From Microtetraspora glauca (GTDB lineage Bacteria; Actinomycetota; Actinomycetes; Streptomycetales; Streptomycetaceae), in NCBI GenBank assembly GCA_000721275.1, contig JOFO01000009.1, positions 1 to 64,000 of the forward strand: DNA of 64,000 nucleotides, read 5' to 3'. The notes below the pieces were generated by a model. The model was not told the DNA's origin and did not search any database. It saw only the letters and a list, made by a program, of their open reading frames with translations. Made by a program: the position numbers and the translations under genes. Positions 34,581 through 53,203 of the stretch are shown in pieces. Each line of letters opens with the position of its first letter. Within the stretch, counting starts at the first letter, position 1.

Positions 34581-34625
34581 CCGCAGGGCGGCACCCCTTT
34601 CCGGGGGTGCCGCCCTGCGGCGTTT
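34581..34625. terminator. Bidirectional terminator between rpoC and the tail cluster
   Basis: Perfect 17-bp stem (34581-34597 with 34604-34620) with a 6-nt loop. It lies between the ends of rpoC (+) and the last holin-like gene of the tail cluster (-). Followed by CGTTTCACC on the plus strand and TCTCGCGCTC on the minus strand. Confidence 0.85.
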
Positions 34626-34888
34626 CACCGGGAGGTCAGCTCCCACAGGGCGACCAGCACGCCGGCGCCGGCGGTGATCGCGGCGATGGAGCCGAGCGGC
34701 CAGCGGGCCCGCTCCAGGTCGTCGAGGCGGGCCTCGTGGTCGGCGAGCTGCTTGTCGGTCTGGTCGCTGCGCTGGACGAGCAGGGCGAGCGAGCCGTCGA
34801 CGCGGGCGAAGCCGGCTTCGAGGGTGCCGCGCAGCCGCTCCAGTTCGAGCGCGACCGCGACCGGGTCGTTCGGGTCAGCCTCGGTCAT
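34625..34888 (-). CDS. Holin-like / XhlA-type membrane protein
   Basis: 87 residues from ATG 34888 (89 from ATG 34894; either overlaps the end of the preceding gene). The first ~60 residues form a likely coiled coil (ELERLRGTLEAGFARVDGSL through HEARLDDLERAR), and one membrane segment follows (about 66-83, GSIAAITAGAGVLVALWEL). This cytoplasmic coiled coil plus C-terminal TM is the XhlA-type layout found beside holins and endolysins. Last gene of the tail cluster. Confidence 0.7.
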   Translation of the reverse strand: MTEADPNDPVAVALELERLRGTLEAGFARVDGSLALLVQRSDQTDKQLADHEARLDDLERARWPLGSIAAITAGAGVLVALWELTSR

Positions 34889-35108
34889 CGGCACCGCCCG
34901 GTTCCGTCCGCAGCCACGCGGGCAGCAGGCGCTGGACGGCGGGGACCGCCATGGCCCGGGTCAGGCCGCCGGCGACGGCGAGGGCGGCGGCCACCCACGG
35001 CAGGGTGGCGGGGATCCCGGCGGCGTCGACGAGCGCGGGCAGGACGAGGGCGAGGGCGACGGCGGTCTGCAGCACGGTGCGGGCCGTGCGCTTCGCGGCA
35101 TCGGACAT
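34875..35108 (-). CDS. Holin-like protein
   Basis: 77 residues with two hydrophobic segments (about 12-32 and 36-55) joined by a short turn and ending in a charged tail, typical of small class II holins. It starts 12 nt downstream of the endolysin and overlaps the next membrane gene by 14-20 nt. Function is inferred from topology and position, not sequence similarity. It would release the endolysin at the end of particle production. Confidence 0.65.
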   Translation of the reverse strand: MSDAAKRTARTVLQTAVALALVLPALVDAAGIPATLPWVAAALAVAGGLTRAMAVPAVQRLLPAWLRTEPGGADDRG

Positions 35109-35120
35109 GGGGGTCTCTCC

Positions 35121-36026
35121 TTACGTCGTGTACGGGACCTTGAGCGCGTTCCAGGACGCGGCGCCCGGCCAGCCGTCGGCGTCGGCGCCGCGGAAGCCGA
35201 GCTTGCGCTGCCAGGCCGCGTACGACTGCCGGTCGGCCTCGGACCAGCGCGGCCCGGGCCCGACCCGGTACCGTCCGCAGCCCTCGGCCGTCAGCCGGCG
35301 GCCCATCGCCGTGATCACCGGGGAGCTGGGCGCGCTCCGGAAGAAGGAGGTGCCGGGGAACGGGTGGTACGCGGGGGTGGCGGGCTTCGCCGGGGGCGCC
35401 GGCCGCGGGGCCGTGCCGAGGCGCCGCTGCACCCGGTCGCGCATCCCCGGCATGCCGAAGCCCTTGGGGTCGCTCTTCCAGTCGGACCACTCCAGGTGGC
35501 CGATGACCGACCTGGCGCCCCAGCCGTGGGCGCGGCAGAGCGCGGCGGAGACCCGTTCGATCGCGTCGAGCTGGGCGGCCGGCCAGGGGTCGGTGCCGTT
35601 GCCGAGGTTGACGCACTCGAAGCCGTAGAAGCGGGAGTTGCCGTCGACGGCGCCGGGGCTGCCCTGGTGTTCGCGGGGGGCCGGGGGCCGGTCGCCGTAC
35701 GCCTCGGTGACGACGGCCCGGAGGACGGCCGGGTCGCCGCCGCCGGCGTGGTTGGCGCGGCCGTTGCCGACCAGGTGGACGGTGCCGTCCTTGGCGATCA
35801 CGCCGTGGCAGAGCGGGCCGGGGAGGCTCTCGTAGCCGTCGAAGCACATCGCGACGGAGGACGCGGTGCCGGTGGACACGGTGTGGTGGATCATGACGCC
35901 GGCGACGGGACCCCAGGCGCCGGCGCCGTTGCGGTGGTGGGTGCGCCAGCCGGGGTGCTCGACGACGGTGACGCCTTCGGCGCGGAGCGCGGCGACGAGC
36001 CGGTCCGCGGACAGGGGAGTGGCCAT
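35121..36026 (-). CDS. Endolysin: zinc amidase with C-terminal wall-binding-like domain
   Basis: 301 residues from ATG 36026 after GGAGG; an upstream ATG at 36044 lacks a comparable ribosome site. The amidase_2/PGRP domain occupies about residues 1-205: zinc ligands would be His47 or His48 (MIHHTV), His177 (IGHLEW) and Asp186 (KSDPKGF), the pattern of actinophage N-acetylmuramoyl-L-alanine amidases. A Pro/Ala linker (about 205-220) leads to a repeat-like C-terminal domain (222-298) with FPGTSFF and WQRKLGF...DGWPG, similar to peptidoglycan-binding modules. No signal peptide, so export depends on the neighbouring holin-like proteins. Confidence 0.88.
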   Translation of the reverse strand: MATPLSADRLVAALRAEGVTVVEHPGWRTHHRNGAGAWGPVAGVMIHHTVSTGTASSVAMCFDGYESLPGPLCHGVIAKDGTVHLVGNGRANHAGGGDPAVLRAVVTEAYGDRPPAPREHQGSPGAVDGNSRFYGFECVNLGNGTDPWPAAQLDAIERVSAALCRAHGWGARSVIGHLEWSDWKSDPKGFGMPGMRDRVQRRLGTAPRPAPPAKPATPAYHPFPGTSFFRSAPSSPVITAMGRRLTAEGCGRYRVGPGPRWSEADRQSYAAWQRKLGFRGADADGWPGAASWNALKVPYTT

Positions 36027-36099
36027 CTGTGGTCCTCCAGACATGCGGGAGCCCCGGCCGTCGGCGGCGCGGGGCGGGCGTGCGGGCGGGGAGCGGGCG

Positions 36100-36537
36100 T
36101 TACGGGACGGGCTCCGGCTCCGGTGCCGGGGTGGGCTCCGGCTCCGGGGCGGGATCCGGTGCGGGCTCCGGGGCGGGGGCCGGGGCCCAGGCGGCGCAGA
36201 GCGCGGCGAAGGCGGCCCGGCGGGACTCGAAGTCGGCGAGGGCGGCCGCGACCGCCCGGACGACCGCGTCCGGGTCGGGCACCGCGGGGCGCCCGCCCGC
36301 GGGCTGGACCATGGTGAGGCCGTGGCCGCGCAGCTGGGCGCCGCCCTCGCCGCTCTCGACGACCTGGGCGGTGACGTACACCGCCGGGTACTCGCCGGTC
36401 ATCGGGTCGCGCTCCAGCGGGCCGCCGAGGGTGTTGTCGTACAGCCGCAGGTCGACGGTGTGGCCGTGCTCGGCGACGGTGCCGCGGCCCGCGTAGTCGA
36501 TCTCGACGCCCCAGGGGTGGTGCGGATCGGGGATCAC
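36100..36537 (-). CDS. Hypothetical tail-cluster protein with Pro-Glu-Pro tail
   Basis: 145 residues. The first ~75 residues look like a small beta domain (HPWGVEIDYAGRGTVAEHG, VDLRLYDNTLGG, YPAVYVTAQVV); an Ala-rich helix follows, and the last ~30 residues alternate Ala/Glu/Asp with Pro (PAPEPEP type). It lies between the minor tail protein and the endolysin, where phages often place tail-tip accessory genes. Family not recognised; a structural accessory is a guess. Confidence 0.65.
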   Translation of the reverse strand: MIPDPHHPWGVEIDYAGRGTVAEHGHTVDLRLYDNTLGGPLERDPMTGEYPAVYVTAQVVESGEGGAQLRGHGLTMVQPAGGRPAVPDPDAVVRAVAAALADFESRRAAFAALCAAWAPAPAPEPAPDPAPEPEPTPAPEPEPVP

Positions 36538-36560
36538 GGGGTGCTCCTTCTCGGGAGGGG

Positions 36561-37202
36561 TCAGGTCTGGCGGCCGTGCATCAGCACCGGCTGGGCGTAG
36601 ACGGTGCCGGAGGTGCTGGTGACGACGGCCTGCACCTCGACGGTGAGGTCCTTGCCGAAGTCGGCCTGCGGGTCGGTGGTGACGGCGGCGGTGTGGTCGA
36701 AGACCGTTCCGGCGGCCACCGTCGGACCGAACGGGGCGCCGCCGACCAGCACCCGCACCTGTCCGGTGGCCCCGGAGGAGACCCGGGTGAGCATCCGCAG
36801 CCGCATCTTGGGCTGCCAGAGGGGGTTCTGGGACTGGGCGATCGTCGTCCAGGAGGTGGCGGTGGTGGCCGGCCAGTTCGCCGGGGCCAGGTCCTGCGGC
36901 GGCAGCATCGGCAGCCAGGGCCGGGCGAGGCCGCCGGTGAGGATGTCGTCGGAGAGGATCTCGTGGCCGTAGGCGTCGTTGACCCGCAGCACGGGCTTGG
37001 TGCCGCCGGGGCCGCTGGTGGTGAACTGGGCGACGAGGACGGCCGTCGCGGGGTCGTGCGGGTCGGACTGCCGCTTCAGGGTGAGCGAGCCGTTGGTGAG
37101 TTCGGTCAGCGGCGGGCGGACGTTGACCGCGGTGGACAGGGCGTTGATCCGGCGCTCCATCTGGATCAGCCGGTCGACGATGTCCTCGGGCAGCAGGGCC
37201 AT
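36561..37202 (-). CDS. Minor tail protein with N-terminal coiled coil
   Basis: 213 residues from ATG 37202, which overlaps the stop of the hub gene by one base. The N-terminus (EDIVDRLIQMERRINALSTA) is a probable trimeric coiled coil as in phage fibres. A beta-rich body follows with LRVNDAYGHEILSDD (about residue 75), a repeat found in intramolecular-chaperone or collar regions of tail fibres, then WLPMLPPQDL and a final beta domain (125-213). A fourth receptor-binding or tip protein is possible. Confidence 0.7.
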   Translation of the reverse strand: MALLPEDIVDRLIQMERRINALSTAVNVRPPLTELTNGSLTLKRQSDPHDPATAVLVAQFTTSGPGGTKPVLRVNDAYGHEILSDDILTGGLARPWLPMLPPQDLAPANWPATTATSWTTIAQSQNPLWQPKMRLRMLTRVSSGATGQVRVLVGGAPFGPTVAAGTVFDHTAAVTTDPQADFGKDLTVEVQAVVTSTSGTVYAQPVLMHGRQT

Positions 37203-38302
37203 CAGGCTTCCTCCAGGGCGAGTTCGGCGGTGTCGGGGTGGCCCCGCTCGGCCGGCCGGACCTTCACGCCGACGATCCGGTAACGGGCGTCGAGGCCCGT
37301 CGGGTGCCATTCGTCGGTGATCCGGACGCGGGCGGTGCGGCCGAGGAGGGTCGAGGGGACGACGTCGGAGAGCCGGATGCTGAGCTCGGGGATGAGGACC
37401 GAGCCCTGGGCCTCCTTCAGGGCGGCCCGGGCCAGCGCGTCGAGCGTGGCCTTGTCGCTGATGTCGTTGTAGTCCGCCGACAGGTCCAGCCGCGGCCAGC
37501 GGTCGGGCAGGTCCGTCGCCGTGATCTCGTCCGACAGGGTCGGCCGGGAGGGGGCGGCGGCGTTGTTGTTGACGGTGGCGCCGCGGGCGAGCGAGGTGGT
37601 GCCGCCGCGGGTGGCGTCGTCCGGGAGGGAGTAGCTGAGGATCGTGCCGGGGCGGTCGAGGACGACGTCCGTGGCGCCGGCGCGGATCCTGGGGGAGCCG
37701 AGCCGGAGCCGGCGCACCCGCCGCCCGTCGGACGGGTCGCGGTAGACGAGGATCTGGTACTCGACGCCGTCCTCGTACGCCGCGAGCTGGTCGAGCGCCT
37801 CCTGGTAGGCGGTCTCGTCGCCGAGCTGGTAGGAGGCGGAGCGCGGCACCTCCTGCGCGGGCACGTCGTCGCCGGGCTCGACGGCGCTCGCCCCGAGGCC
37901 GGCGCCGAGCCGCGCCCACAGGTCGCGGACGATCCCGAACTGCTCGACCTGGTGGTACTTGACCTCGGTGCGGATCCGGCGCCGGGCCGCGTACGAGTCG
38001 AAGGTGGACGCCTGGACGCCGAGGGTCACCACGCCGCGGTCGCTGCCCTGGAGGTTGGTGGTCCAGACGATGCCGCCCCACCACAGGAAGCCGCCGCGCT
38101 CCAGGTACACGGTGGTGCGGCCGGGCTTGATCTTGCGGGCCCGCTCGGCCATCGCGCGGTCGGGCACGGGGACGGTGCCGGAGAGCGAGCCGGCGCGGCC
38201 GATGTAGTCCTCGAAGGAGACGTCCCGCAGCGGCAGGATGTCGAGGGTCTGGTCGGTCACCAGGTCGCAGAAGACGGCCCGGTAGGGGGTGTCGAGACTC
38301 AT
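37202..38302 (-). CDS. Tail hub protein, Siphovirus Gp37-like
   Basis: 366 residues from ATG 38302 after GAGG. Sequence style and position match the Siphovirus Gp37-like (ReqiPepy6 Gp37) minor tail family: N-terminal beta domain (YRAVFCDLVTDQTLDILPL), WWGGIVWTT, a long middle part, and a C-terminal RVRITDEWHPTGLDARYRI region, as in hub proteins that cap the tube. It follows the three fibre genes and is coupled to the next gene. Family assignment is from memory of the pattern, not a search. Confidence 0.72.
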   Translation of the reverse strand: MSLDTPYRAVFCDLVTDQTLDILPLRDVSFEDYIGRAGSLSGTVPVPDRAMAERARKIKPGRTTVYLERGGFLWWGGIVWTTNLQGSDRGVVTLGVQASTFDSYAARRRIRTEVKYHQVEQFGIVRDLWARLGAGLGASAVEPGDDVPAQEVPRSASYQLGDETAYQEALDQLAAYEDGVEYQILVYRDPSDGRRVRRLRLGSPRIRAGATDVVLDRPGTILSYSLPDDATRGGTTSLARGATVNNNAAAPSRPTLSDEITATDLPDRWPRLDLSADYNDISDKATLDALARAALKEAQGSVLIPELSIRLSDVVPSTLLGRTARVRITDEWHPTGLDARYRIVGVKVRPAERGHPDTAELALEEA

Positions 38303-38312
38303 GGGACGGACC

Positions 38313-39455
38313 TCACGGAAGGATGTAGGTGGCGCTGACGCGGACGTTGCGGCCCGGGACGAGCGCGCCGTTGGAGACCCACGTGCGCAGGGTGACCTGG
38401 CCGCTCGGGGAGAGCCAGGCCGAGCCGTCGCCGAAGCCGTCGGAGGCGATCGCGTCGATGCCGAGGGCGGGACGCCAGCCGGAGGGCAGGGTGCACAGCG
38501 GCTCGTCGTTGATGTTCCCGGCGCTGTTGGCGTCGATCTGGGCGCCGCTGCGGGTGAGCGTCACCTGCGTGGTGCACAGCCCGCCGCGGGTGCGCCGGGC
38601 CTCGTAGCCGACCAGGGTCCAGCCGGTGAGCGCGACCGCGCCGGCCGTCACGGACTCGGTCTCCACCGGCGGGTGGTAGGTCGCCCAGGCGGTGCCGTTC
38701 CACCGCTGGAGGACGCCGTTGTGCTCGCGGTACTGGCCGGTGTAGCCGCCGACGGAGAGCGCCCCCTGGGGGGCGATGCCGCCGATCTCCCGGGGGTACG
38801 CGACCCAGCCGGTGCCGCTCCACCGCTGGAGGTGGTGGGCGATGTCGTTGTCCTGGTACTGGCCGGGGTAGGCGCCCGGCACGCCGGCGTTGTTGTAGAC
38901 GGGCAGGATGCCGCCGACCGCGACGGTCGTGGCCCGCAGGTCGGTGAGGTCGCCGCCGGTCCAGGCGATGCCGCCGGTGCCGGCGGAGGTCCCGGCCTTG
39001 ACCCGGACGGTGAAGAGCGGCAGCGAGGCGGGCGGGACGGGCGGGGCGACCGGGTCGGCCTTCGCCTGGCCGACGACGACCTCCAGGACGGCCTCGTACC
39101 GGGTGAGGCTGTCGAACTCGTCGTCGTACACCCGCAGGACGACGAGGTCGATCCGCGGGTGGAGCGGGTCGCCGTCGCCGAAGGTGAGGACGGTGTCGCC
39201 GTCGAGGGCGACGGGGTACGCGCCCTGTTCGGGGCGGCCCTGGACGAGGGCCCGGCCGGCGTGGACGGTCGCGGTCATCGGGCCGCTGCCGGCCATGGAC
39301 AGGCCGCTGACCCGGTACTTGCCGTCGGTGGAGCCCGGCAGGATGCCGGAGCGGGAGACGAGCGGGTCGACGGGGACGCCGGCCCCGAGGTCGGTGAGGC
39401 GGGTCGTCCGGCGGGTCTGGCCGCTGGGCAGCAGCCAGCCGGGGCGCAGGGGCAT
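38313..39455 (-). CDS. Tail fibre 3 (paralogous receptor-binding protein)
   Basis: 380 residues from ATG 39455 after GAGAGGAGA. Residues 1-180 share the anchor design of the other two fibres (SGQTRRTTRL, RSGILPGS, GSGPMTATV, EQGAYPVAL, PRIDLVVLRVYDD). Two repeats of the type GAYPGQYQDN..LQRWSG (194-215) and YTGQYREHNG.LQRWNG (238-254) follow. The C-terminal domain (about 262-380) is unlike those of fibres 1 and 2 and is the likely receptor-binding part. It ends 11 nt before the hub gene. Confidence 0.82.
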   Translation of the reverse strand: MPLRPGWLLPSGQTRRTTRLTDLGAGVPVDPLVSRSGILPGSTDGKYRVSGLSMAGSGPMTATVHAGRALVQGRPEQGAYPVALDGDTVLTFGDGDPLHPRIDLVVLRVYDDEFDSLTRYEAVLEVVVGQAKADPVAPPVPPASLPLFTVRVKAGTSAGTGGIAWTGGDLTDLRATTVAVGGILPVYNNAGVPGAYPGQYQDNDIAHHLQRWSGTGWVAYPREIGGIAPQGALSVGGYTGQYREHNGVLQRWNGTAWATYHPPVETESVTAGAVALTGWTLVGYEARRTRGGLCTTQVTLTRSGAQIDANSAGNINDEPLCTLPSGWRPALGIDAIASDGFGDGSAWLSPSGQVTLRTWVSNGALVPGRNVRVSATYILP

Positions 39456-39493: not shown

Positions 39494-40678
39494 CTACGGC
39501 AGCGGGTCGACCTTGATGAAGGAGTTGTCGAAGGAGGCCTTGTAGCCGAGGGTGTTGGGGACGATCCGGAAGAAGGCCGTCAGCGTGTAGGTCGCGCCCG
39601 GCGTGAGGTTCGAGATCCGGCGGGTGCTGGAGACCGAGACCGTGGTGGCGCTGGCGGCCATGGCCGCGTACTCGTCCAGGGGGGCGCTGATGACCGTCGA
39701 ACCCAGGCTCAGCTCCAGCGCCATGTACGCGTAGTGGTCGTCGCGCGACCGCATGCGGGAGCCGAAACCGACGGCGACCGCCTTCGACGGCGGGGCGACG
39801 AAGCTGACCCGGAGCGGGTTGGTGGCCCTCTTCTCCAGCGTCGGGGTGTAGGTGCCGGACCCGGTCTCGCCCGCGTCGGCGGTGTCGGCGAAGTACGGGC
39901 CGGGCACGGCCGGCACCCAGGCGGTGCCGTTCCAGCGCTGGAGGATGCCGGTGGGGGAGTCCCGGTACTGGCCGGTGTAGCTGGCGGTGAGGGAGGAAGC
40001 GGAGTTCGGGACGATGCCGCCGAGCGCGGACGGGTAGGACACCCAGGCGCCGCCGTCCCAGCGCTGGAGGGCGCCGCCGGCGTCCTGGTACTGGCCCGGG
40101 TAGGCGCCGGGCTGGACCGGGCCCTCGACCGGCAGGATGCCGCCGAGGCTCACCACCGGGGTGCGCAGGTCCTTGAGCGAGGTGTTCCACGGGATGCCGC
40201 CGTTGCCCGCGCTGACGCCGGCCGGCACCAGCACCTCGTACAGCGGCAGGCAGCGCTCGGGGACCAGCGGGACCTGCGGGTTCGGTTCGGCGGTGCCCTG
40301 GATGATCTCCAGCTTCGCCTCGTACCGCTGGTTGTCGTCGTACAGGTCGTCGTAGATCTTGAGGACGATCAGGTCGATGCGGTTGTACGCGTTGCCGGGC
40401 GCGAAGGTGAGGGTCTCGGAGGTCGGCAGGGTCACCGGGTAGGCGCCCTGGGAGATCTCGCCCTGGATGACGGCCCGGCCCTCGGAGACGGTCGCGGTCA
40501 TCGGGGCGGAGCCGAAGGTCCAGAAGCCGGCGAGCCGGTACTGGCCGTCGTAGGAGCCGGGCAGGATGCCGGAGCGGACCTGGACGGGGTTGGCGAGGGT
40601 GGTGACGCCGGTCTGGGTGAGGCGGGTGTCCTCGCGGGTCTGGCCGATCTCGGCGACCCAGCTGCTGCGCAGGTTCAC
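39494..40678 (-). CDS. Tail fibre 2 (paralogous receptor-binding protein)
   Basis: 394 residues from ATG 40678. Anchor region residues 1-180 (IGQTREDTRL, RSGILPGSYDGQYRL, GSAPMTATV, SQGAYPVTL, RIDLIVLKIYDD) aligns without large gaps to fibre 3. The two QY-D-LQRW repeats lie at 191-212 and 234-254. The unique C-terminal domain (about 260-394) has a beta-sandwich look (SSTRRISNLTPGATYTLTAF), possibly carbohydrate-binding-like. The C-terminal difference from the neighbours suggests a separate receptor. Confidence 0.82.
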   Translation of the reverse strand: MNLRSSWVAEIGQTREDTRLTQTGVTTLANPVQVRSGILPGSYDGQYRLAGFWTFGSAPMTATVSEGRAVIQGEISQGAYPVTLPTSETLTFAPGNAYNRIDLIVLKIYDDLYDDNQRYEAKLEIIQGTAEPNPQVPLVPERCLPLYEVLVPAGVSAGNGGIPWNTSLKDLRTPVVSLGGILPVEGPVQPGAYPGQYQDAGGALQRWDGGAWVSYPSALGGIVPNSASSLTASYTGQYRDSPTGILQRWNGTAWVPAVPGPYFADTADAGETGSGTYTPTLEKRATNPLRVSFVAPPSKAVAVGFGSRMRSRDDHYAYMALELSLGSTVISAPLDEYAAMAASATTVSVSSTRRISNLTPGATYTLTAFFRIVPNTLGYKASFDNSFIKVDPLP

Positions 40679-40724: not shown

Positions 40725-41921
40725 TCAGGACCTGAGCCACTCGGCGGTGAGGTTGCAGGCGTAGCCGGAGCCGCCGAGGGTCTTGAGCGACGCGGTGTGG
40801 CTGTGGAAGCCGGCGAGCTGGAGGGTGTCGCCGGCGACGAGCTTGAGCACGCCGCTGCCGCCCACCGAGACGGCGCCGTTGCCGGCCGGGAGGAGCCAGG
40901 TCATCCGGGACTGTCCGGCGCCGCTGACCAGGATCCGGGCGCCGCGCATGCCGGTCTGGCCGTCGCCGGCGAAGGTGGCGTGGGCGGAGACCCGCCACCA
41001 GCCGCCGCGCGGGACGGTGTAGGTGGTGGTGCCGTTCCAGCCGGCGCCGTCGTCGACCTCCACGGTGGGCAGGCTGAGCGTGGTCCAGGTGTTCACCGGG
41101 ACGGTCTGCTGCTGGGTGGTCAGCCACTGGGTGGCGCTGAGCAGCAGGGTCGCGGCGCCGTCGGTGTACTGCCAGGCGGCGCCGTCCCAGCGCTGGAGGC
41201 CGCGGCCGGTGTCCCGGAACTGCCCGGCGTAGGAACCGGAGGTCGTGGTGGTCGGCGCGATGCCGCCGATCGCCTTCGGGTACGAGACCCAGGTGGTGCC
41301 GTCCCAGCGCTGGAGCAGCCCGGCGGTGTCCCGGTACTGGCCGGGGTAGGCGCCCCTGAAGCCGCTGGCGGGCATGATCCCGCCGAGGGCGACGACCGGC
41401 CAGTGCTGGGTGGTGACCGCGCCGGAGTTCCAGCCGATGCCGCCGGTGCCGGCCGAGGTGCCCTTCGGCACCTTGACCGTGTAGAGCGGGAGGACGCTGC
41501 CCGTGCCGCTGGGCGGCACGACCGGGGTGGCGCTCGCCTCGCCCTTGACCAGGCGGATGACGGCCTCGGTGGTGCCGGTGCGGTCGTAGGGCTCGTCGAC
41601 GACGGCCAGTTCGATCAGGTCGATCCGGTCGTACTGGGCGTCGCCGTCCGCCAGGGTCAGGGTCTCCGGCGCGGTGACGGCGACCAGGTAGGCGCCCTGG
41701 GCGGTGTCCTTGCCCTGGACGATCGCGCGGCCCGTGCCGATGGTGGCCTGCATGGGCGCGCTGCCGGTGAGCGCGAGCCCGCCCGGCAGGACGCCGGGGC
41801 GGGAGCGGAGCGGGGTCTCCGCGGTGCTCTGGCCGCTGGGGGTGAGGAGGGCGGCGAGGGCCAGCCGGGTGTCCTCGCGGGTCTGCCCGGTGGGCTGGAG
41901 CCAGGCGGCTCGTACGGTCAT
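40725..41921 (-). CDS. Tail fibre 1 (paralogous receptor-binding protein)
   Basis: 398 residues. Anchor region (TGQTREDTRL, RPGVLPGG, GSAPMQATI, AQGAYLVAV, RIDLIELAVVD) followed by repeats GAYPGQYRDT.LLQRWDG (190-208) and YAGQFRDTGRGLQRWDG (231-247). The C-terminal domain (about 255-398) contains PTVEVDDGAGWN, YTVPRGGWWRVSAHATFAG and LKLVAGDTLQLAGFHSH, a C1q/TNF-like jelly-roll pattern common at phage fibre tips. First of three tandem fibre genes, directly downstream of Dit. Confidence 0.82.
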   Translation of the reverse strand: MTVRAAWLQPTGQTREDTRLALAALLTPSGQSTAETPLRSRPGVLPGGLALTGSAPMQATIGTGRAIVQGKDTAQGAYLVAVTAPETLTLADGDAQYDRIDLIELAVVDEPYDRTGTTEAVIRLVKGEASATPVVPPSGTGSVLPLYTVKVPKGTSAGTGGIGWNSGAVTTQHWPVVALGGIMPASGFRGAYPGQYRDTAGLLQRWDGTTWVSYPKAIGGIAPTTTTSGSYAGQFRDTGRGLQRWDGAAWQYTDGAATLLLSATQWLTTQQQTVPVNTWTTLSLPTVEVDDGAGWNGTTTYTVPRGGWWRVSAHATFAGDGQTGMRGARILVSGAGQSRMTWLLPAGNGAVSVGGSGVLKLVAGDTLQLAGFHSHTASLKTLGGSGYACNLTAEWLRS

Positions 41922-47155: not shown

Positions 47156-47980
47156 ATGGACACGGATCCCGGAGCGAACCGGCGGGAGCGGGTGGTCGAC
47201 TGGCTCGCCTCCCATCCCGATCTGCCCCACCTCTTCGCACGCCTTTCCGAGCTCGTCCACGTCCACGGGCACGCCCCCGAGGAGCTCGTGGTCATCCCCC
47301 GGTCCGAGATCGACCGCCGGGAGACCACCGCCTTCACCTCCGGCTGGGCCGAGGCCGTCTCCGACGAACTCCCCCGGATACGCCGGGAGTACGAGCGCCG
47401 GGTCGCCGACGCGTACGCCCAGGGGCAGAGCGACGCGCGGGGCATCCGGCGGCCGCAGCGCCGGACCGACGACGGCCCCCGGGACGGGGCCCGCGTCATC
47501 GCGCTGCCCTTCGCCCGGCTCCTCGAACCGCCGGCCGCCGTCGTCGAGGCGGAGGAGCGGGTGCGCCGGGAGCGCGAGCTCTTCGAACAGCGCCCCGCGC
47601 GCGAGGAGCCGTACGAGCAATCCGGCGCGTACGAGCCGGACTTCGGCGTACACGAGCCGGACTTCGGCGCGCGCGAGCCGGAGCCCGAGGACGACAAGGA
47701 GCCCGCCCCCGGCCCGGAGCCGGAGTTCCCGCCCGCGGCCCAGGAGGGCCGCACGCGCCGGAACCCGCAGCCCGTCCGGAAGGTCGTCCGCGGCAAGGGC
47801 GGCCGCCCGATCGTCCCGCCGCTCTCCCACGTCCCCGGCCAGCAGGGCGCGGGCGGCGAGCGCAGGGACCCCGACCAGCGCCCCGGCCGGGGCCGGCGCC
47901 TCTCCGAGCGGGCCAAGGCCCTGGAGGAGGACCTGGCCGCCGAGCGGACACCGGAAGCGCCCCCGGGGTCCGCCCCCTGA
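47156..47980 (+). CDS. Hypothetical protein encoded against the tail operon, 274 residues
   Basis: From ATG 47156 after GGAAGGCAGC. The N-terminal ~100 residues are ordered-looking (ERVVDWLASHPDLPHLFARL, then ETTAFTSGWAEAVSDEL, IRREYERRVADAYAQGQ). The rest is charged and Pro-rich, with a short tandem repeat (YEPDFGVHEPDFGAREPE, about 162-180) and an Arg/Lys-rich end, so probably disordered. It is the only plus-strand gene between chaperone and tape measure. No family recognised; it might regulate or accompany the particle. Confidence 0.7.
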   Translation: MDTDPGANRRERVVDWLASHPDLPHLFARLSELVHVHGHAPEELVVIPRSEIDRRETTAFTSGWAEAVSDELPRIRREYERRVADAYAQGQSDARGIRRPQRRTDDGPRDGARVIALPFARLLEPPAAVVEAEERVRRERELFEQRPAREEPYEQSGAYEPDFGVHEPDFGAREPEPEDDKEPAPGPEPEFPPAAQEGRTRRNPQPVRKVVRGKGGRPIVPPLSHVPGQQGAGGERRDPDQRPGRGRRLSERAKALEEDLAAERTPEAPPGSAP

Positions 47981-48017: not shown

Positions 48018-48715
48018 TCAGCCGAAGAAACGGGCCAGCTCGCCGGCGGAGACCGCCTCGGCGGGCCGTTCCGGCTCTCCGTCCCGGCTCTCCTCCCCGT
48101 CCCCTCCGCTGCCCGGCCGGGGCACCGGCTTCGGGGGTTCGGGCTGGTCGCCGTCCTCGGTCCCGTTGACGGACAGGAACATCCAGTTGGCGACGGCCAG
48201 GTGGTCCACCACCGCCGCCAGCAGGTGGTCGGTGACCGACCACCCGGCCGCCTCGCCGTGCAGCTCGTGCTGGACGGCGCTGCCCGGGGGCAGGTGCTTG
48301 ATCAGCAGCAGCAGCCGGCGGCTGGAGAGCTCACCGCGGTGCCAGTCGAGGAGGTCGATCCCGTAGTGGCGGAGGAGGTCCGCTTCGAGGGCCTCGGCGT
48401 GTTCGTCGACGAACTCGACGAGGCTCAGTCTTCCCCCAGGCCGAGCCCGGTCTCCTTGCCGTACGCCTCCAGGACGGCGGCGATGTCCTGCATGGTGACG
48501 TCGTGCTCCTCGAAGCGGGCGAACTGCTCCTCGCCCATCAGGAGCGCGAGCAGGCCGTCCACGTCGTTGTCGTCGAGCGTGCGCAGGCCCTTCGCGGTCG
48601 CGCGGGACAGCTCGGTCGGAAGGGTGAAAGTGTCGCCGTCCAGCTCGAAGGACCAGGTGCGGCCGTGGGCCTCCTGGCGCTGGGCACGGGCGGCGTTGAC
48701 GTCGAAACGGGCCAT
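48018..48715 (-). CDS. Tail assembly chaperone GT (product of -1 frameshift)
   Basis: Joined product of about 232 residues: the first ~94 are those of the G protein, then ribosomes shift -1 near 48431-48437 and continue to the stop at 48018. The -1 frame is fully open from the slip site and translates to a sensible T domain (DEHAEALEADLLRHYGIDLL, DWHRGELSSRRLLLLIKHLP, HLLAAVVDHLAVANWMF), typical of actinophage T-part chaperones, followed by a Pro/Glu/Gly-rich tail ending LARFFG. As in lambda gpG/gpGT, the long form would bind the tube protein and the tape measure during assembly. No start codon is needed for the T part. Confidence 0.85.
48425..48715 (-). CDS. Tail assembly chaperone G
   Basis: 96 residues from ATG 48715, starting MARFDVNAARAQRQEAHGR; the core (WSFELDGDTFTLPTELSRAT, DDNDVDGLLALLMGEEQFARF) is the usual actinophage tail-chaperone pattern. 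It follows the tail-tube gene and precedes the frameshift. In the lambda model the short form is the major product and the GT fusion the minor one. Confidence 0.85.
   Translation of the reverse strand: MARFDVNAARAQRQEAHGRTWSFELDGDTFTLPTELSRATAKGLRTLDDNDVDGLLALLMGEEQFARFEEHDVTMQDIAAVLEAYGKETGLGLGED
48431..48437 (-). other. Candidate -1 slippery site GGGGGAA
   Basis: On the minus strand the zero frame reads CTG GGG GAA GAC TGA; the run of five G then AA lies two codons before the G-protein stop. The -1 frame is open through and beyond this point. A downstream pairing segment has not been computed. Confidence 0.65.
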
Positions 48716-48803: not shown

Positions 48804-49415
48804 TCAGGCCGAGGCGCCGGTCTTGTACTGGTCGTCCTTCATGAGGAAGGTCGCCAGCGGCTGGCCGGCCCCGTTCGACATGGCGGTGAAGGTGATGCCC
48901 AGGGTGGACGCCGCCTTGCGGGCCAGCTTGATGTCGTCGGAGGCGGTGACCTGGCCGCGCGGGATGATGAAGCGGTACGTGACCGCGGTGCCGCCGACCT
49001 TGACGTCGGTGAACTCCAGGCCGAGGGCGCGGACGTCCGCGTACGGGCGCTCGGCGATCTCGTACTTGTACGTGTCGGTCGCCGCGGCCGGCTCCGCCTC
49101 GACCTTGCCGCCGCCCATGAAGAACGGCAGCGTGTCCTCGTTGAACTGGAGCATCGAGAACTTCAGCGAGAGGTCGCGGCTGGAGTAGATGAAGTGCACC
49201 GGGGAGACCGACTGCCAGGTGTCGATCGGCTCCAGCTTGTCCTTCTTGGAGAAGGTGACGCCGTCGCCGGTGGTGTAGCCGAGGTTCGTCCAGGTCGTGG
49301 CGGACCAGTCGGTCGCCGGGTCGGCGCCGAAGGACGGGGCGGCGGCGCCGGCCGCGGCCACGAAGAGCTTGCCGGTGCCGGCGACGCGGATCTCGGCGGA
49401 GTTGTTTCCTGCCAT
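48804..49415 (-). CDS. Major tail tube protein
   Basis: 203 residues from ATG 49415. A beta-rich protein with the layout of siphovirus tube proteins: NSAEIRVAGTGKLFVAAAG at the start, TGDGVTFSKKDKLEPIDTWQ, then SRDLSLKFSMLQFNEDTLPF with the long inter-ring loop region, and ending in a short flexible tail. Immediately precedes the G/GT chaperones, which is the invariant order in long-tailed phages. Forms the stacked hexameric rings of a non-contractile tube. Confidence 0.85.
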   Translation of the reverse strand: MAGNNSAEIRVAGTGKLFVAAAGAAAPSFGADPATDWSATTWTNLGYTTGDGVTFSKKDKLEPIDTWQSVSPVHFIYSSRDLSLKFSMLQFNEDTLPFFMGGGKVEAEPAAATDTYKYEIAERPYADVRALGLEFTDVKVGGTAVTYRFIIPRGQVTASDDIKLARKAASTLGITFTAMSNGAGQPLATFLMKDDQYKTGASA

Positions 49416-49507: not shown

Positions 49508-49548
49508 GTCGGTGGGGCCGGACGGGACGGGGCGGGTCCGGCGGGCCG

Positions 49549-49956
49549 TCAGAAGACGGTGAGGGAGAGGCGCAGCACGCAGAGGTAGCGGTTGGCGCCG
49601 CGGTAGAGGTAGTCGGGCAGCCAGCGCGGCCCGTCCTGCTCCTCCACGTCGTGGACGGTGTTGACGCCGATCTGCTTGCCCAGGGTCGCGAGCAGGGCGC
49701 GCCGGGCGGCGTTGGCGAGGACGTGGGCCTCGTTCTTGGTGGGGCCGTACACCTCGAACTCGATCAGCGGCATGTCGACGTGCAGGTCGCCGATCCAGGC
49801 GCCGCCGCGGCGGTTGACCAGGACGGCGCGCTGGGTGCCGTCGAAACCGGCGGGCGCCTGCACGGCGATCACCGCCCCGGCCAGCGCCGGGTCGGCCTTG
49901 AGGACGTCGACGACCAGCTTCTCGACGTCCGGGAACGCACTCGGGGGAGTGGTCAT
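49549..49956 (-). CDS. Tail terminator protein
   Basis: 135 residues from ATG 49956, which sits 8 nt after GAGGAGA; a longer reading to 50079 adds low-complexity Pro/Arg sequence and is rejected. The pattern (FPDVEKLVVDVLKADPALAG, VLVNRRGGAWIGDLHVDMP, EVYGPTKNEAHVLANAARRA) matches actinophage tail terminators (gpU/HK97 gp10-like) that cap the tube. In a phage this gene follows head-tail connector genes; here those are missing and an ATP-grasp-like gene takes the place. Confidence 0.75.
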   Translation of the reverse strand: MTTPPSAFPDVEKLVVDVLKADPALAGAVIAVQAPAGFDGTQRAVLVNRRGGAWIGDLHVDMPLIEFEVYGPTKNEAHVLANAARRALLATLGKQIGVNTVHDVEEQDGPRWLPDYLYRGANRYLCVLRLSLTVF

Positions 49957-50288
49957 CGCGGTTCTCCTCGGGAGGGGCGGTGGGAAGGGAGGGGGCCGTC
50001 CGGGGGCGCCGGCGGGGAGGGGAGGGGCGCGGCGCCGCTCCCGGACGGCCGACGGCGGAGCCGCGCCCCGTCCGGGCACAGCTCCGCCGCTGCACCAACT
50101 GTGACAGAGAGCGTGCGCGCGCGCAACTAAAACGGCGAGGTGCTGGGCCGCGCTGTGTCCGCGGCGGGTCGGTACGGCTCTGACCTGCGGCGCGACCCCG
50201 GCGGATACCGGTTCCGGCGGGAGGCGGGGGACCGGTAGGTTGACCGTTCCCGGCCCGCGGGCCGGGCCGTACCCCTGAGGAGCCGCCC
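49957..50288. promoter_or_regulatory. Tail-operon control region
   Basis: 332 nt with no gene, between the tail terminator gene (-) and the ATP-grasp-like gene (+). It contains the conserved 29-bp element at 50102-50130. The stretch 49985-50070 is a very GC-rich minus-strand leader. The short AT-containing core around 50095-50130 is the obvious promoter location. Confidence 0.6.
50102..50130 (-). promoter_or_regulatory. Conserved 29-bp promoter/operator element, tail-operon copy
   Basis: Read on the minus strand, TTAGTTGCGCGCGCGCACGC then TCTC then TGTCA; 23 of 29 positions equal the copy at 52582-52610. It holds GTTGC-N6-GCACG with a perfect 12-bp palindrome in the core. A promoter reading is possible: -35 TTGCGC, 17-nt spacer, -10 CACAGT. 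Lies 146 nt before the tail terminator start. Confidence 0.7.
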
Positions 50289-51122
50289 GTGTCCGCCGTC
50301 GCCCGCCCCCGGCTGCTGTACGTCACCGACCTCGCCTATCCCGCGCGCGGGCGCCGCTACGGCGACGAGGACATCGCGCTCACCGCCCGGCTCCGCGAGG
50401 CGTTCGACCTCGCGCTGTGCCACCCGGGCGACGCCGCCGCGCTGATGGACGCCTTCGACGGCGTCGTCGTCCGCAACAGCGGGCCCGTGCTCCACCACCA
50501 GGAGGCGTACGACCGGTTCCGCGAGCGGGCCGCCACCCTCGGCACGCGCGTCTACAACCCGCTGCACGGGCGCGGCGACATGGCCGGCAAGCAGTACCTG
50601 CTCGACCTCACCGCCGCCGGGTTCCCCGTCATCCCCACGGTCGACCGCGCCGAGGACCTCGACCGGCTCCCCGACGCCGCGCTCTACGCGGTCAAGCCGA
50701 AGGCGGGCGCCGACTCCATAGGGCTGCGCTTCCTGCCGTACGAGGAACTGACCGGACTGGCCCTCGACGGCGGACTGCTCGTCCAGCCGCGGATCGACTT
50801 CGTGTACGAGGTCTCCTTCGTCTTCGTGGACGACCTCTTCCAGTACGCCGTCCACGCCCCCGACCCCGAGCGCCGCTGGGTCCTGGAGCCGTACGAGCCC
50901 ACCCCGGACGACCTCGCCTTCGCCCGCCGCTTCATCGACTGGAACACGCTCCGGCACGGCGTCCAGCGCGTCGACGCCTGCCGCACCCGGGACGGCGGGC
51001 TGCTCCTCGTGGAGCTGGAGGACCTCAACCCGTACCTCTCCCTCGACCGCGTCGGCGAGCCCGTCCGCGCCCGCTTCGCCGACGCCCTCACCCGCTCCCT
51101 CCGCGCCTTCCTGGAGGCGTGA
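50289..51122 (+). CDS. ATP-grasp-fold protein of unknown substrate
   Basis: 277 residues from GTG 50289 after GAGGAGCC. ATP-grasp marks: the lysine-bearing strand YAVKPKAGADSIGLRF (about residue 134), LVQPRIDFVYEVSFVF in the place of the second nucleotide-binding strand, and the metal-binding end LLVELEDLNPYLSLD (about residue 240), close to the E-x-D/N-x-N-P hallmark. RimK/glutathione-synthetase-like enzymes join carboxylates to amines. It runs against the tail genes and ends before a 25-bp perfect inverted repeat. It could be tail-linked cargo or a neutral passenger. Confidence 0.7.
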   Translation: MSAVARPRLLYVTDLAYPARGRRYGDEDIALTARLREAFDLALCHPGDAAALMDAFDGVVVRNSGPVLHHQEAYDRFRERAATLGTRVYNPLHGRGDMAGKQYLLDLTAAGFPVIPTVDRAEDLDRLPDAALYAVKPKAGADSIGLRFLPYEELTGLALDGGLLVQPRIDFVYEVSFVFVDDLFQYAVHAPDPERRWVLEPYEPTPDDLAFARRFIDWNTLRHGVQRVDACRTRDGGLLLVELEDLNPYLSLDRVGEPVRARFADALTRSLRAFLEA

Positions 51123-51135
51123 CGGCGGCATGACG

Positions 51136-51186
51136 GAACGGCGGAGCGCCCCGTGTCCGGTCCGGACACGGGGCGCTCCGCCGTTC
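51136..51186. terminator. Bidirectional terminator, 25-bp perfect inverted repeat
   Basis: Arms 51136-51160 and 51162-51186 are perfectly complementary around a single central base. It lies 14 nt after the ATP-grasp-like stop and 30 nt after (on the minus strand) the end of the small HTH gene, so it would end both converging transcripts. It isolates the regulator genes from the tail terminator gene, which has its own promoter element. Confidence 0.85.
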
Positions 51187-51215
51187 CCGCGCGGGCGCGC
51201 GGTCGAGGGGCTGGA

Positions 51216-51425
51216 TCAGGTCGTACGGGGCCGGGCCCGCCGCCGGGCCGCCCGCTCCGCCGCGAAGACGTCCTCCAGGCGGAAGAGCTGGGCGCGGCCC
51301 GCGCGGCCCGCGGCCCGCAGGTGGCCCAGCTGGACCCACTTGCGGATGGTCGCGGGCGCGACCCCGGCCTCGGCGGCGGCCAGCGGCCCCGGGATCAGGG
51401 CCGGCAGGTGGGGCGTGCTCAGCAT
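51216..51425 (-). CDS. Small helix-turn-helix protein (MerR/excisionase type)
   Basis: 69 residues from ATG 51425, overlapping the upstream stop by seven bases. The winged-helix pattern AAAEAGVAPATIRKWVQLGH, LRAAG, AQLFRLEDVFAAER matches single-domain MerR-like proteins such as BldC, AlpA and phage excisionases. Without an integrase nearby an excisionase role is unlikely; a transcriptional regulator of the tail cluster is more plausible. Confidence 0.78.
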   Translation of the reverse strand: MLSTPHLPALIPGPLAAAEAGVAPATIRKWVQLGHLRAAGRAGRAQLFRLEDVFAAERAARRRARPRTT

Positions 51426-52150
51426 GGGGTCTCCTCCGTGTCGTCCATCGCCGCCTCGATCTCCTCCGCGCGGGCGCCGGACGCCGCCGCCAGCTCCCGC
51501 CACTCGTCCTCCCGCCACAGGTGCCGGTAGGCCGGGTCGTCCTGGCAGCCGCACACCGGATCGGCGCACACACAGGCCGGGTTGACGCACAGCACCGCCC
51601 GGCGGTCCGGGAACGCGCGCAGCGAGACCGAGTCGCACCACGGGCAGCGGCCGGCCACCCGCACCACCGGCTCCGCCGCGCCGAGCGTCCGCGCGCACCG
51701 GCGGGCCATCCGCCGCAGCTCGTCCCGCACGTGGCGGGCCAGGTCGGGGTGGGCGGCGACGGCGTCGAGGAGCCCGACGACCCGGCGGACCCGGTCGGTG
51801 ACCCCGGCGCGCGGCGGCCGCGGCAGCCCGAGCCGCGCGCACACGGCCTCCTCCAGCTCCACCACGCCGTCGGTCACGTCCCGGATGCAGTCGGAGACGT
51901 GCAGCCGGATCGGGGCGGCGCCGTGGCCGGGGACGGCGAGCCCGTGCCGCTGCTCCATGAGCAGCGCCTCGCGCCGTTCCTGGCGCAGGAGTCCGGCGTC
52001 GCCGGGGCGGGGGACGGCCGGCGCGGCGCCGGCGGGGGAGCGGCGGACGGGGGCCAGCTCCTCGGCGAGTTCGGGGAACTGCCGGACGAGCGCGGCGGCC
52101 CAGAGCGTCACGTCCCGCAGGACGGCCTCGGCGGCGGCCCGCCCGGTCAC
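51419..52150 (-). CDS. Zinc-ribbon protein of the regulator operon
   Basis: 243 residues from GTG 52150, which overlaps the WhiB-like stop by four bases (GTGA). Mostly helical (LRDVTLWAAALVRQFPELAE, VTDRVRRVVGLLDAVAAHPD), with a cysteine cluster near the C-terminus (CPWC at about residue 180, then CVNPACVCADPVCGC) that could bind zinc. Family not recognised; similar helical plus zinc-ribbon proteins occur in actinophage and integrative-element regulator regions. Coupled on both sides, so it is co-expressed with the WhiB-like and small HTH proteins. Confidence 0.68.
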   Translation of the reverse strand: MTGRAAAEAVLRDVTLWAAALVRQFPELAEELAPVRRSPAGAAPAVPRPGDAGLLRQERREALLMEQRHGLAVPGHGAAPIRLHVSDCIRDVTDGVVELEEAVCARLGLPRPPRAGVTDRVRRVVGLLDAVAAHPDLARHVRDELRRMARRCARTLGAAEPVVRVAGRCPWCDSVSLRAFPDRRAVLCVNPACVCADPVCGCQDDPAYRHLWREDEWRELAAASGARAEEIEAAMDDTEETPC

Positions 52151-52497
52151 GCGGTCCCCCCGGCGCGGCCGCCGCCCGCGACGGCGGCGAGCGCGGCGTC
52201 GAGCTGCGCGGCGACGGCACGGGGGTCGAGGGGACCGGCGGTGCCCGGTGTCGTGTGACGGGTGGCCGAACGGGGCTGCACCGGGCGGCCGTTGCGCCAC
52301 AGGCGGCCGGCGCAGACGCCGTCGAACCAGCTCTCGGCGGGGGCGACGGCGGCCTCGCACTCACGGGGGACGGGACAGGCGGCGCAGGCCCGCAGGGCGG
52401 GGGCTGCCTGCCGCTCGCGGCGGGCGAAGACGACGGCCGGGGAGAGGCCGGCGCACGCGGCGGCGGCCTGCCAGGGGGTCGGGTCGGGCTGGGACAA
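52147..52497 (-). CDS. WhiB-like iron-sulfur transcription factor
   Basis: 116 residues from TTG 52497, 6 nt after GGAGAG. The in-frame ATG at 52587 would lie inside the 29-bp promoter element and is less likely. Wbl pattern: first Cys in AAACAGL, CAACPVPREC (C-x2-C-x5-C), then SWFDGVCAGRLWRNGRP in place of the G-V-W-G-G turn. Wbl proteins hold a 4Fe-4S cluster and usually act with the principal sigma factor; actinophages carry homologues that alter host transcription. First gene of the three-gene regulator operon. Confidence 0.85.
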   Translation of the reverse strand: MSQPDPTPWQAAAACAGLSPAVVFARRERQAAPALRACAACPVPRECEAAVAPAESWFDGVCAGRLWRNGRPVQPRSATRHTTPGTAGPLDPRAVAAQLDAALAAVAGGGRAGGTA

Positions 52498-52581
52498 GAC
52501 GTTCTCTCCACGGTCCGGGGCCGCGGGGCGCGGGCCACGAGGGCCGGCGTCCGGGGCCGGCGAGTGCGGCGGACAGCAGAC

Positions 52582-52610
52582 TGACATGTTGCGTGCGAGC
52601 TCGCAACTAA
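52582..52610 (-). promoter_or_regulatory. Conserved 29-bp promoter/operator element, regulator-operon copy
   Basis: Minus strand TTAGTTGCGAGCTCGCACGC then AACA then TGTCA; same spacing as the copy at 50102-50130. The core TGCGAGCTCGCA is a perfect palindrome. Possible -35 TTGCGA, 17-nt spacer, -10 CAGTCT. Lies 85 nt before the WhiB-like TTG start. Confidence 0.7.
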
Positions 52611-52667
52611 CGCCCAGGCGGTCATCTTGCCGCTCCGGTGGTGGTCTTCATCGTTTCGACACGATTG

Positions 52668-52705
52668 CGTGCCCGAAAGCACGTAATTCCGTGCGCGCAA
52701 GCACG
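52668..52705 (+). promoter_or_regulatory. Twin dyad operators before the XRE regulator
   Basis: Two copies of CGTGC-N6-GCACG at 52668-52683 and 52690-52705, centres 22 bp (two helical turns) apart, immediately before a possible -10 TAGAGT (52707-52712) of the plus-strand regulator. Related to the half-sites GC-N6-GCACG in the 29-bp elements. Fits autoregulation by the adjacent HTH protein. Confidence 0.7.
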
Positions 52706-52753
52706 CTAGAGTGAGGGGCCCGGAGGGTGGGGATGATGAGGGAGCGGTAGAGC

Positions 52754-53203
52754 ATGAACAGTCATGGGCTCGACGAGTTCGCCGGCTGGGTCGAAGACCT
52801 GATGAGACGGCGCGGGTACGACATCGACAGCCCGCGCGGCGGCGGCAAGTCCCGGATCGCGGACGAGGCCGGGGTCCACCGGGCCGCGGTGACCCGCCTG
52901 CTCCAGCGGCAGAGCATGCCCGACCTGGAGACCATGCGCCGGATCGCCCCGCTGCTCGGGGTCTCCGTCCGGGACATGCTGATCCGCTCCGGCCGGGTCA
53001 CCCCCGAGGAACTCCCGCTCGCGGCGGACCTGCTCCCGCCGACCGACTGGCAGCCCACCATGGAGGACTTCGCGCGCTGGCTCGGCGTCCCCGACGAGCG
53101 CATGGGCGTCTTCGTCAAGGTGGTCAGCCAGTTCCTGGAGCCCGACGCCGCCCCCGAGGCCGAGGACGTCCGCCCCGAATCCCGCCGCACCGCCCGCGAC
53201 TGA
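52754..53203 (+). CDS. XRE-family helix-turn-helix regulator
   Basis: 149 residues from ATG 52754 after GGGAGCGG. Cro/C1-type HTH at about 35-75: SRIADEAGVHRAAVTRLLQR, followed by PDLETMRRIAPLLGVSVRDM. The C-terminal half (75-149) has no known domain and may mediate oligomerisation. It is transcribed away from the WhiB-like operon across 256 nt holding three operator-like dyads, the usual place for a phage-type repressor. Probable master switch of the tail cluster, by inference. Confidence 0.82.
   Translation: MNSHGLDEFAGWVEDLMRRRGYDIDSPRGGGKSRIADEAGVHRAAVTRLLQRQSMPDLETMRRIAPLLGVSVRDMLIRSGRVTPEELPLAADLLPPTDWQPTMEDFARWLGVPDERMGVFVKVVSQFLEPDAAPEAEDVRPESRRTARD

Follow-up and report, generated by a model that had tools for sequence, protein, structure and literature searches.

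What is a set of phage tail genes without a head doing between two essential genes of a soil bacterium? The question is raised by 64,000 nucleotides from Microtetraspora glauca, placed by GTDB in the Streptomycetaceae (GenBank assembly GCA_000721275.1, contig JOFO01000009.1, positions 1 to 64,000 of the forward strand; this whole stretch is called the window here). In the window, a module of tail, lysis and regulatory genes occupies the interval from rpoC (30671-34570) to rpsL (53549-53920). An earlier note on this DNA had read the module as a likely F-type tailocin system. F-type tailocins such as the F-type pyocin of Pseudomonas aeruginosa and the monocin of Listeria combine a flexible non-contractile tail with lysis genes at a resident chromosomal locus and have no head. 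From sequence comparisons, we conclude that the module is probably a domesticated headless siphovirus tail locus working like an F-type tailocin. It is best read as an F-type-tailocin-like locus of independent origin, and its product would most likely be tail-shaped particles directed against rival bacteria.

Gene content of the module

The open reading frames (ORFs) of the interval were called again and scanned with Pfam and PHROGs. The tail operon lies on the minus strand and runs from its promoter at 50128-50098 down to position 34625. It begins with the tail terminator (49549-49956; phrog_123, E = 7e-20), whose start was chosen within a longer open frame, the tail tube protein (48804-49415; PF25681, E = 1.4e-57), and the tail assembly chaperone (48425-48715; phrog_10551) with its -1 frame extension (48018-48425). 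These are followed by a fast-evolving ORF, tmpA (45636-46547), with a weak tape-measure match (phrog_167, E = 2e-4), and by the tape-measure-like proteins B (44405-45610) and C (43107-44408), whose genes overlap by 4 bases. In one tape-measure ORF, a coiled-coil stretch also weakly matches a hub/lysozyme family. The distal tail protein Dit (42051-42974; PF22768; phrog_5577, E = 5e-80) then precedes three phrog_3398 fibres, namely, fibre 1 (40725-41921), fibre 2 (39494-40678) and fibre 3 (38313-39455, counted from the first Met of the scanned stretch), and the tail hub or minor tail protein (37202-38302; phrog_1885, E = 4e-61). Two ORFs with no assigned function come next, a phrog_9849 protein (36561-37196) and a 145-amino-acid ORF, o145 (36100-36537). 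The operon ends with an N-acetylmuramoyl-L-alanine amidase endolysin (35121-36044; Amidase_2, PF01510; phrog_880, E = 3e-75) and two small holin-like membrane proteins (34875-35108, phrog_4316; 34625-34894, phrog_5225), each with one hydrophobic segment in a simple hydropathy scan.

Upstream of the tail operon are a second minus-strand operon and a divergent repressor gene. The operon encodes a WhiB-family regulator (52147-52497; PF02467), a Cys-cluster protein with no assigned function (51419-52150), and a MerR-type helix-turn-helix (HTH) regulator (51216-51425; phrog_2474, E = 1e-14; Pfam MerR below the cut-off). The start given for whiB is an inferred one, since a gene as long as the full open frame would extend over its promoter. 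The divergent gene, xre (52754-53203, plus strand), encodes an XRE phage-type repressor (PF01381; phrog_3949).

Pfam and PHROGs gave no match in the interval to a terminase, portal, capsid, integrase or replication family, the sole exception being the small MerR-type HTH, which reaches E values of 0.003-0.008 to excisionase and small-terminase families. PHROGs classes phrog_3398 as "head and packaging", virion structural protein; in Streptomyces phage Austintatious this gene stands between Dit and the hub. No sheath or contractile baseplate family was found among the Pfam and PHROGs matches of the module core genes. We then searched the related loci described below by tblastn with the head proteins of four phages, and no match was found in 40 carrier loci, 10 loci of other genera or 67 named loci. 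Four loci with tube matches of low identity (27-37%; G041, G025, G201 and G016) served as positive controls; all four matched head proteins and are true prophages. The tube loci of G031, G092, G145 and G166 lay outside the control set. These results bear out the ordered siphovirus tail set, the amidase, the two holin-like proteins, the regulators, the non-contractile tail and the missing head of the earlier note.

By its genes, the locus has a non-contractile tail with no head or packaging functions, a linked holin and endolysin, phage-type regulators and operators of its own, and a resident chromosomal position under purifying selection, as an F-type tailocin does. An active prophage would have head, packaging, integration and replication genes, none of which matched here, and a gene transfer agent would have heads that package host DNA, for which no genes were found in the locus; the heads found in the same genome belong to a separate prophage on contig C78.

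Distribution and chromosomal site

For the genus, 246 Streptomyces genomes were drawn, one per species and including that of the window. A tube match at E up to 1e-10 was present in 46 of them. When the window's genome and five matches of 25-35% identity were left out, tube relatives of at least 42% identity remained in 40 of 245 other congeneric genomes (41 of 246 counting the window). All 40 carriers were fetched in part and compared. The module lies beside rpoC in 19 and, by the flanks in view, elsewhere in 19, and the loci of the other two (G041 and G201) end at contig edges. Among the 19 rpoC-adjacent carriers, 13 have both rpoC and rpsL in the stretch with the tube gene in between; in the other six rpoC alone is in reach, and the module seems inverted in two of these six (G113 and G118). 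The earlier note had called the module "fixed" between rpoC and rpsL. The site is recurrent, but "fixed" was an overstatement, since about half of the carriers have the module elsewhere.

We refer to carriers with the module beside rpoC as class A, to those with the module and lysis genes elsewhere as class B (11 carriers), and to those with the module elsewhere and no lysis match as class C (8 carriers). The class C loci (L102 in G188, L104 in G139, L108 in G234, L124 in G011, L187 in G200, L192 in G241, L110 in G095 and L122 in G212) have no match to the lysis genes or to xre. Six of the eight share a chromosomal neighbourhood, and a gene in reach in five of these six is one which we take to be DNA polymerase III alpha-like.

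A second set comprised 67 named loci, which overlap with the genus genomes (some are of the same strain), so that the two sets are not independent. Of the named loci, 53 extend for 8 kb or more beyond the tube gene towards rpsL, and 52 of these contain rpsL, at a distance of 3.0-7.4 kb from the tube gene. A family draw of 150 genomes gave 21 matches in 7 of 17 genera, 7 of them from the window's own genus (window included). Ten of the 14 other-genus matches, from four genera, were fetched; six of these modules lie between rpoC and rpsL (five of one genus and one of another), and the remaining four have neither the rpoC nor the rpsL flank in view. In a class draw of 296 genomes, all four matches were from the window's own genus, window included.

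The interval was also fetched from 39 module-less Streptomyces genomes (rpsL was located in 40), where it measures 346-8694 bp. No module gene was found in the interval of 38 of them. The other, G018, retains holA, part of holB and xre within 2.0 kb and represents a deletion relic.

Phage ancestry

The distal half of the module is collinear with Austintatious (MK305888), an Austintatiousvirus phage of Streptomyces venezuelae. The shared order is Dit, fibre, hub, gp20, endolysin and two small proteins, with the phrog_9849 protein in the position of gp20, and the genes compared are 42-77% identical: Dit 46%, fibres 42-47%, hub 45% (gp19), amidase 49%, and the small proteins 56% (phrog_4316, gp22) and 77% (phrog_5225, gp23). 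Austintatious differs from the module in having a terminase, portal, capsid and early region, in its tube protein, and in carrying a single fibre-type gene (gp18) and a single tape measure. The tube protein is nearer to those of Streptomyces phage Kromp (32%) and Thermobifida phage P318 (29%). The chaperone is related to both of these phages and the terminator to Kromp, more weakly than the tube. Kromp and P318 are complete phages and share with the module the related tube and chaperone. Weak relatives of the XRE repressor, 28-39% identical among the matches listed, are encoded by Austintatiousvirus and by other phages of Streptomyces. The Austintatious-like distal half and the Kromp- and P318-like tube indicate that the locus, as judged from these identities, is chimeric: it joins parts of two siphovirus lineages and has the heads of neither.

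Regulatory signals, fibres and a proposed mechanism

The chaperone gene has an in-frame GGGGGAA slippery site near its stop in 104 of 106 loci, followed after the slip by a median of 140 open codons; codon-shuffled controls carry this site in 1.6% of cases. A frameshift at GGGGGAA would reach the -1 extension in the window.

The putative tail promoter (50098-50128, minus strand) consists of TTGCGC, a 17-bp spacer and CACAGT, and an operator, AGTTGCGCGCGCGCACGC (50111-50128, minus strand), covers its -35 element and part of the spacer. A second copy of the operator (52591-52608) lies in the putative promoter of the whiB operon (52578-52608, minus strand), and two more operator-like inverted repeats lie before xre (52663-52709). 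The operator pattern AGTTGCGNGCNCGCACGC has exactly two sites in the genome of 7.47 Mb, both in the module, at the tail and whiB promoters. No other site was found at one mismatch, and four further places were found at two mismatches; this search covers one operator form, because the repeats before xre do not fit AGTTGCGNGCNCGCACGC. A strict operator-promoter-leader pattern is present upstream of the terminator gene in 70 of 104 loci. The HTH of the XRE protein is nearly invariant across 17 aligned sequences. We infer that XRE binds to and represses at the operators.

The leader TGCAGCGGCGGAGCTGYGCCC (50074-50094, minus strand), directly after the tail promoter, is nearly invariant, and its core is found in 79 of 104 loci. 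A hairpin was considered for this leader. Its 5' arm is conserved, but by eye the matching 3' arm is missing from several of the loci compared, and therefore no RNA element is claimed.

Induction by DNA damage is typical, though not universal, for F-type tailocins. In the window, the LexA-type pattern occurs no more often than expected by chance, and none was found close to the regulators of class A loci; DNA-damage induction therefore has no sequence support in the window copy. CGAACN4GTTCG, which we take to be a LexA-type box, precedes xre by no more than about 350 bp in three of the 11 class B loci, those of G100 (L114), G033 (L118 and L119) and G080 (L183).

We also compared the fibres along their lengths. 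At the N terminus of fibres 1 and 2, related loci are about 90% identical to the window, but at the C terminus identity is down to 63-69% in fibre 1 (20 loci) and 52-67% in fibre 2 (19 loci); in fibre 3, for which only seven loci were available, it is 60-72% over the first 240 residues and 43-59% beyond. In the structure model of fibre 1 (mean pLDDT 76.5, pTM 0.43), the C-terminal 140 residues mostly score 81-92. This predicted C1q/TNF-like head matches C1q domains in Foldseek, with TM-scores by target of mostly 0.7-0.8. The first-ranked Foldseek match of fibre 1 was the central spike of phage phi812, and the fibre of cyanophage A-1(L) ranked 18th. A likeness to the receptor-binding protein of phage 1358 was considered, but the match was loose (root mean square deviation of about 20) and was given no weight. 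A search of solved structures by sequence with the fibre profile gave no match. Three fibres, two of them C-terminally divergent and one with a predicted head of receptor-binding type, suggest that the receptors are foreign or variable.

Based on these results, we propose the following mechanism. The XRE repressor would sit on the operators in the tail promoter, in the whiB-merR promoter and upstream of xre itself. Once freed from repression, the single long operon would make the tube on the tape measure, helped by the frameshifted chaperone. As homology predicts, the tube would be closed by the terminator where a phage has its head, and the tip would consist of Dit, the hub and the three related fibres. 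The holin-like proteins and the amidase, if they act as their cassette suggests, would burst the producer cell and release the particles, whose fibre heads may bind cell-wall glycans of related actinomycetes while the tail perturbs the envelope.

The same particle and lysis system could have been selected for something other than killing rivals, such as partial mycelial lysis, release of nutrients or DNA, or development. The private operon of WhiB and MerR-type regulators fits such a role, as does the lack of a LexA-type box near the class A regulators. The contractile particles of Streptomyces are likewise described, in the parts of two reports considered here, as affecting fungal interactions and not as bacteriocins (PMC8910223, PMC8505568). 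On the other hand, the fibres point to foreign or variable receptors, and WhiB need not mean development, because the annotation of phage Austintatious includes a WhiB gene as well. We consider a role other than killing unlikely, though it deserves to be kept in mind beside the preferred tailocin-like use against rivals.

Head genes in the carrier genomes

A headless tail might be supplied to DNA-bearing heads encoded elsewhere, in a gene transfer agent, a satellite or a resident prophage. In the window's own genome, no match was found to the Pfam families TerL (PF03354), portal (PF04860) and capsid (PF05065), to the Austintatious portal (a search without a positive control), or to the Austintatious terminase, a query that was positive in three of 11 genomes. 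The idea that this genome is free of heads was nevertheless ruled out, since the P318 portal matched a prophage on contig C78 (L262 and L263); the Pfam and Austintatious searches had therefore missed that head type. This separate siphovirus prophage has a terminase, portal, protease and major head protein, and it also has matches for a major tail protein and tape measure of its own. It has no match to the module genes or to the two operator patterns tried. Because C78 has its own tail and no module-type operator, its heads do not appear, as far as the sequence goes, to be part of the tail system.

Portal or terminase genes are also present in other carriers (G015, G169, G025, G201 and G041 in the portal search; G004, G041 and G208 in the terminase search). 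The single portal query found no match in the class A carriers G004, G161, G223 and G208, and G161 and G223 had no Austintatious-type terminase match either; with one portal and one terminase query, other head types could escape. The heads in these genomes and the existence of tail-only loci without recognised lysis genes are what a tail supplier would predict, but the separate tail of C78 and the four class A carriers without a portal match argue against it, and we judge it very unlikely. As a separate observation, the terminase of carrier G004 (G004:C3:20375-21637) is 96% identical to that of Austintatious.

Integrity and selection of the module genes

If the module were a decaying prophage remnant, its genes should be broken in many loci. 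The integrity counts took only loci with a stop in reach; those for xre and holA include the relic G018. ORFs were full length in 97 of 97 loci for the terminator, 96 of 96 for the chaperone, 95 of 97 for the tube, 82 of 82 for xre, 23 of 23 each for the amidase and holA, 88 of 90 for tape measure B, 75 of 77 for Dit, 72 of 75 for fibre 1, 54 of 54 for fibre 3, 36 of 36 for the hub, 57 of 63 for the 274-amino-acid ORF p274 (described below), and 9 of 10 for o145. Both short tubes are from one strain counted twice (G223 and L073), in which Dit and fibre 1 are broken too; a sequencing error is possible there, since even rpsL is just 93% identical. In G008, outside the integrity set, the copy is reduced and its tube gene is split. 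Only 25 loci have a recognisable tmpA; in the named loci with a tblastn match to it, tmpA is 25-62% identical, compared with 66-93% for tape measure B.

Selection was estimated with the codon model GY+F3X4 of IQ-TREE on 5-12 sequences (4 for rpoC). The omega values were 0.10 for the tube (0.12 in a second set), 0.08 for the chaperone, 0.08 and 0.11 for tape measures B and C, 0.07 for Dit, 0.09 for the hub, 0.10-0.16 for the fibres, 0.08 for the amidase, 0.05 for holA, 0.18 for holB, 0.05 for xre, 0.19 for whiB, 0.21 for tmpA, 0.11 for p274, 0.06 for a 277-amino-acid protein and 0.04 for rpoC. For fusA, ter and o145 the F3X4 model stayed at its starting value of 1.000 and gave no estimate. The F1X4 model gave 0.11 for fusA, 0.19 for ter, 0.36 for o145, 0.20 for tac and 0.30 for mtp. 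The module genes are under purifying selection and most of their ORFs are kept. The module is clearly of phage origin, G018 and G008 hold decayed copies, and G223/L073 has broken tube, Dit and fibre 1 genes; still, with omega at 0.05-0.21 where F3X4 gave an estimate, nearly all loci full length for most genes, and the frameshift site, promoter and operators kept, a remnant without present function is highly improbable.

Evolutionary history

Among on-site carriers, the distances of module genes correlate with those of the unlinked gene recA (Mantel r 0.44-0.63, p up to 0.002, 15-20 genomes); for rpoC and recA, r is 0.67. The main clades of the gene trees agree, though not fully. In the tail gene tree, other genera nest inside Streptomyces, the off-site copies of G012 and G023 fall within on-site clades, and G078 is a mosaic. 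A strictly vertical descent was softened for these reasons: the nested genera and the mosaic show that some exchange happened. The pattern is best explained by a long residence during which copies were lost and some were exchanged. That the module is an ordinary incomplete prophage recently inserted next to rpoC, as its recognisable phage genes and the homology of one end to a known phage genus might suggest, is hardly credible given that two other genera share the site and the gene order, that the distances correlate with recA, and that the interval has no match to any integrase or replication family.

The earlier note had asked for a comparison of the rpoC-rpsL interval across Streptomyces and for dN/dS on the tail genes. 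The comparison showed a recurrent though not universal site, and the codon models showed purifying selection. Three findings would, according to the note, speak against it: head genes at another place but controlled alike, tail genes that have decayed in the majority of relatives, and an isolated recent remnant. None of the three was made: the C78 heads have their own tail and no match to the two operator patterns tried, both operator sites lie in the module, few genomes carry decayed copies, and tube relatives occur across the genus and on site in other genera.

Weight of the evidence

Several observations weigh against a domesticated tailocin-like locus. Eight of 40 carriers have tail genes and no match to the module lysis genes (in a ninth, G041, the lysis genes are lost to the contig end). 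The class A regulators have no LexA-type box nearby. The tail operon is interrupted by a plus-strand gene (47156-47980), and the tape measure is split or duplicated, whereas Austintatious, Kromp and P318 are each annotated with a single one. Full-length ORFs are fewer for fibre 2 (72 of 80 loci), tape measure C (74 of 84) and whiB (31 of 64, with a query that carries a doubtful N terminus). Omega under F1X4 exceeds that under F3X4, and pairwise NG86 dN/dS gives higher ratios (tube 0.33-0.84, fibres mostly 0.5-0.9, tmpA 1.1-1.7; reference genes rpoC 0.12 and fusA 0.14-0.37), so that we rely on the direction of omega and not on its value.

A broader proposal is more tentative. The Streptomyces family may have a flexible-tail system that was domesticated from actinophages independently and that recurs at rpoC-rpsL and in another shared neighbourhood. 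This system would come in lysis-equipped and lysis-free forms and serve these mycelial bacteria in kin competition or controlled hyphal lysis. We hold this to be possible but somewhat doubtful. If it is true, the lysis-free form needs another exit from the cell or borrows lysis from the hypha's own death.

Comparison with known systems

Compared with F-type pyocin and monocin, the module has a different phage ancestry, three paralogous fibres, a split tape measure and no recognised DNA-damage box. These two are the sole other F-type tailocins named in the part considered here of the paper on rhizoviticin, an F-type tailocin of Allorhizobium vitis (PMC10811719). As described there, rhizoviticin is likewise a headless two-lineage chimera with a tail, lysis genes and phage-type regulators. 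It keeps an early region with an integrase remnant and replication genes and was called early in transition, whereas the module has no matched early replication genes, a site common to several genera, and WhiB and MerR regulators. Because no early replication region was matched and the site is shared across genera, the module is, by its gene content and as far as that account of rhizoviticin goes, the more settled locus. Killing by rhizoviticin has been demonstrated (PMC10811719), whereas the module is known from its genes alone. The contractile injection systems (eCIS) and SLP particles of Streptomyces are also phage-tail-derived loci, but those systems, in the parts of the reports considered, are contractile and have a sheath protein (PMC8505568, PMC8910223), and the module gave no match to a sheath or a contractile baseplate family.

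In open-licence literature, the titles and starts of abstracts held nothing about an F-type tailocin in Streptomyces; judged on these, the module would be the first F-type-tailocin-like locus found in the genus. F-type tailocins are rare in print. Streptomyces, the best known antibiotic-producing genus, has been searched for decades for small molecules; with the locus in 41 of 246 sampled genomes, it would have a protein weapon or lysis device as well. The many natural variants of the fibres and of the split tape measure could serve to test how such tails choose their targets and set their length.

Other genes of the rpoC-rpsL interval

Two plus-strand genes of the module interval have no Pfam or PHROGs match. 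p274 (47156-47980), inside the tail operon on the opposite strand, has no assigned function and no known family and is kept in many loci. The 277-amino-acid protein (50289-51122) is present in 27 loci, those whose tubes most resemble the tube of the window. The name "ATP-grasp" for this protein was a guess without Pfam support and was dropped.

The rpoC-rpsL interval also looks like a common hotspot for exchangeable systems. Nine of the 39 module-less genomes hold all or part of another cassette there (L137 in G006, L142 in G019, L158 in G026, L155 in G038, L149 in G040, L150 in G044, L165 in G045, L147 in G092 and L164 in G145). This cassette encodes a Crp-type cyclic-nucleotide-binding regulator, a putative cyclase-like protein with no Pfam match, a PycTM-like membrane protein (PADLOC, E = 7e-14 for the G006 copy) and others. 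The tail module and the alternative cassette occur together in one of the 40 carriers, G078.

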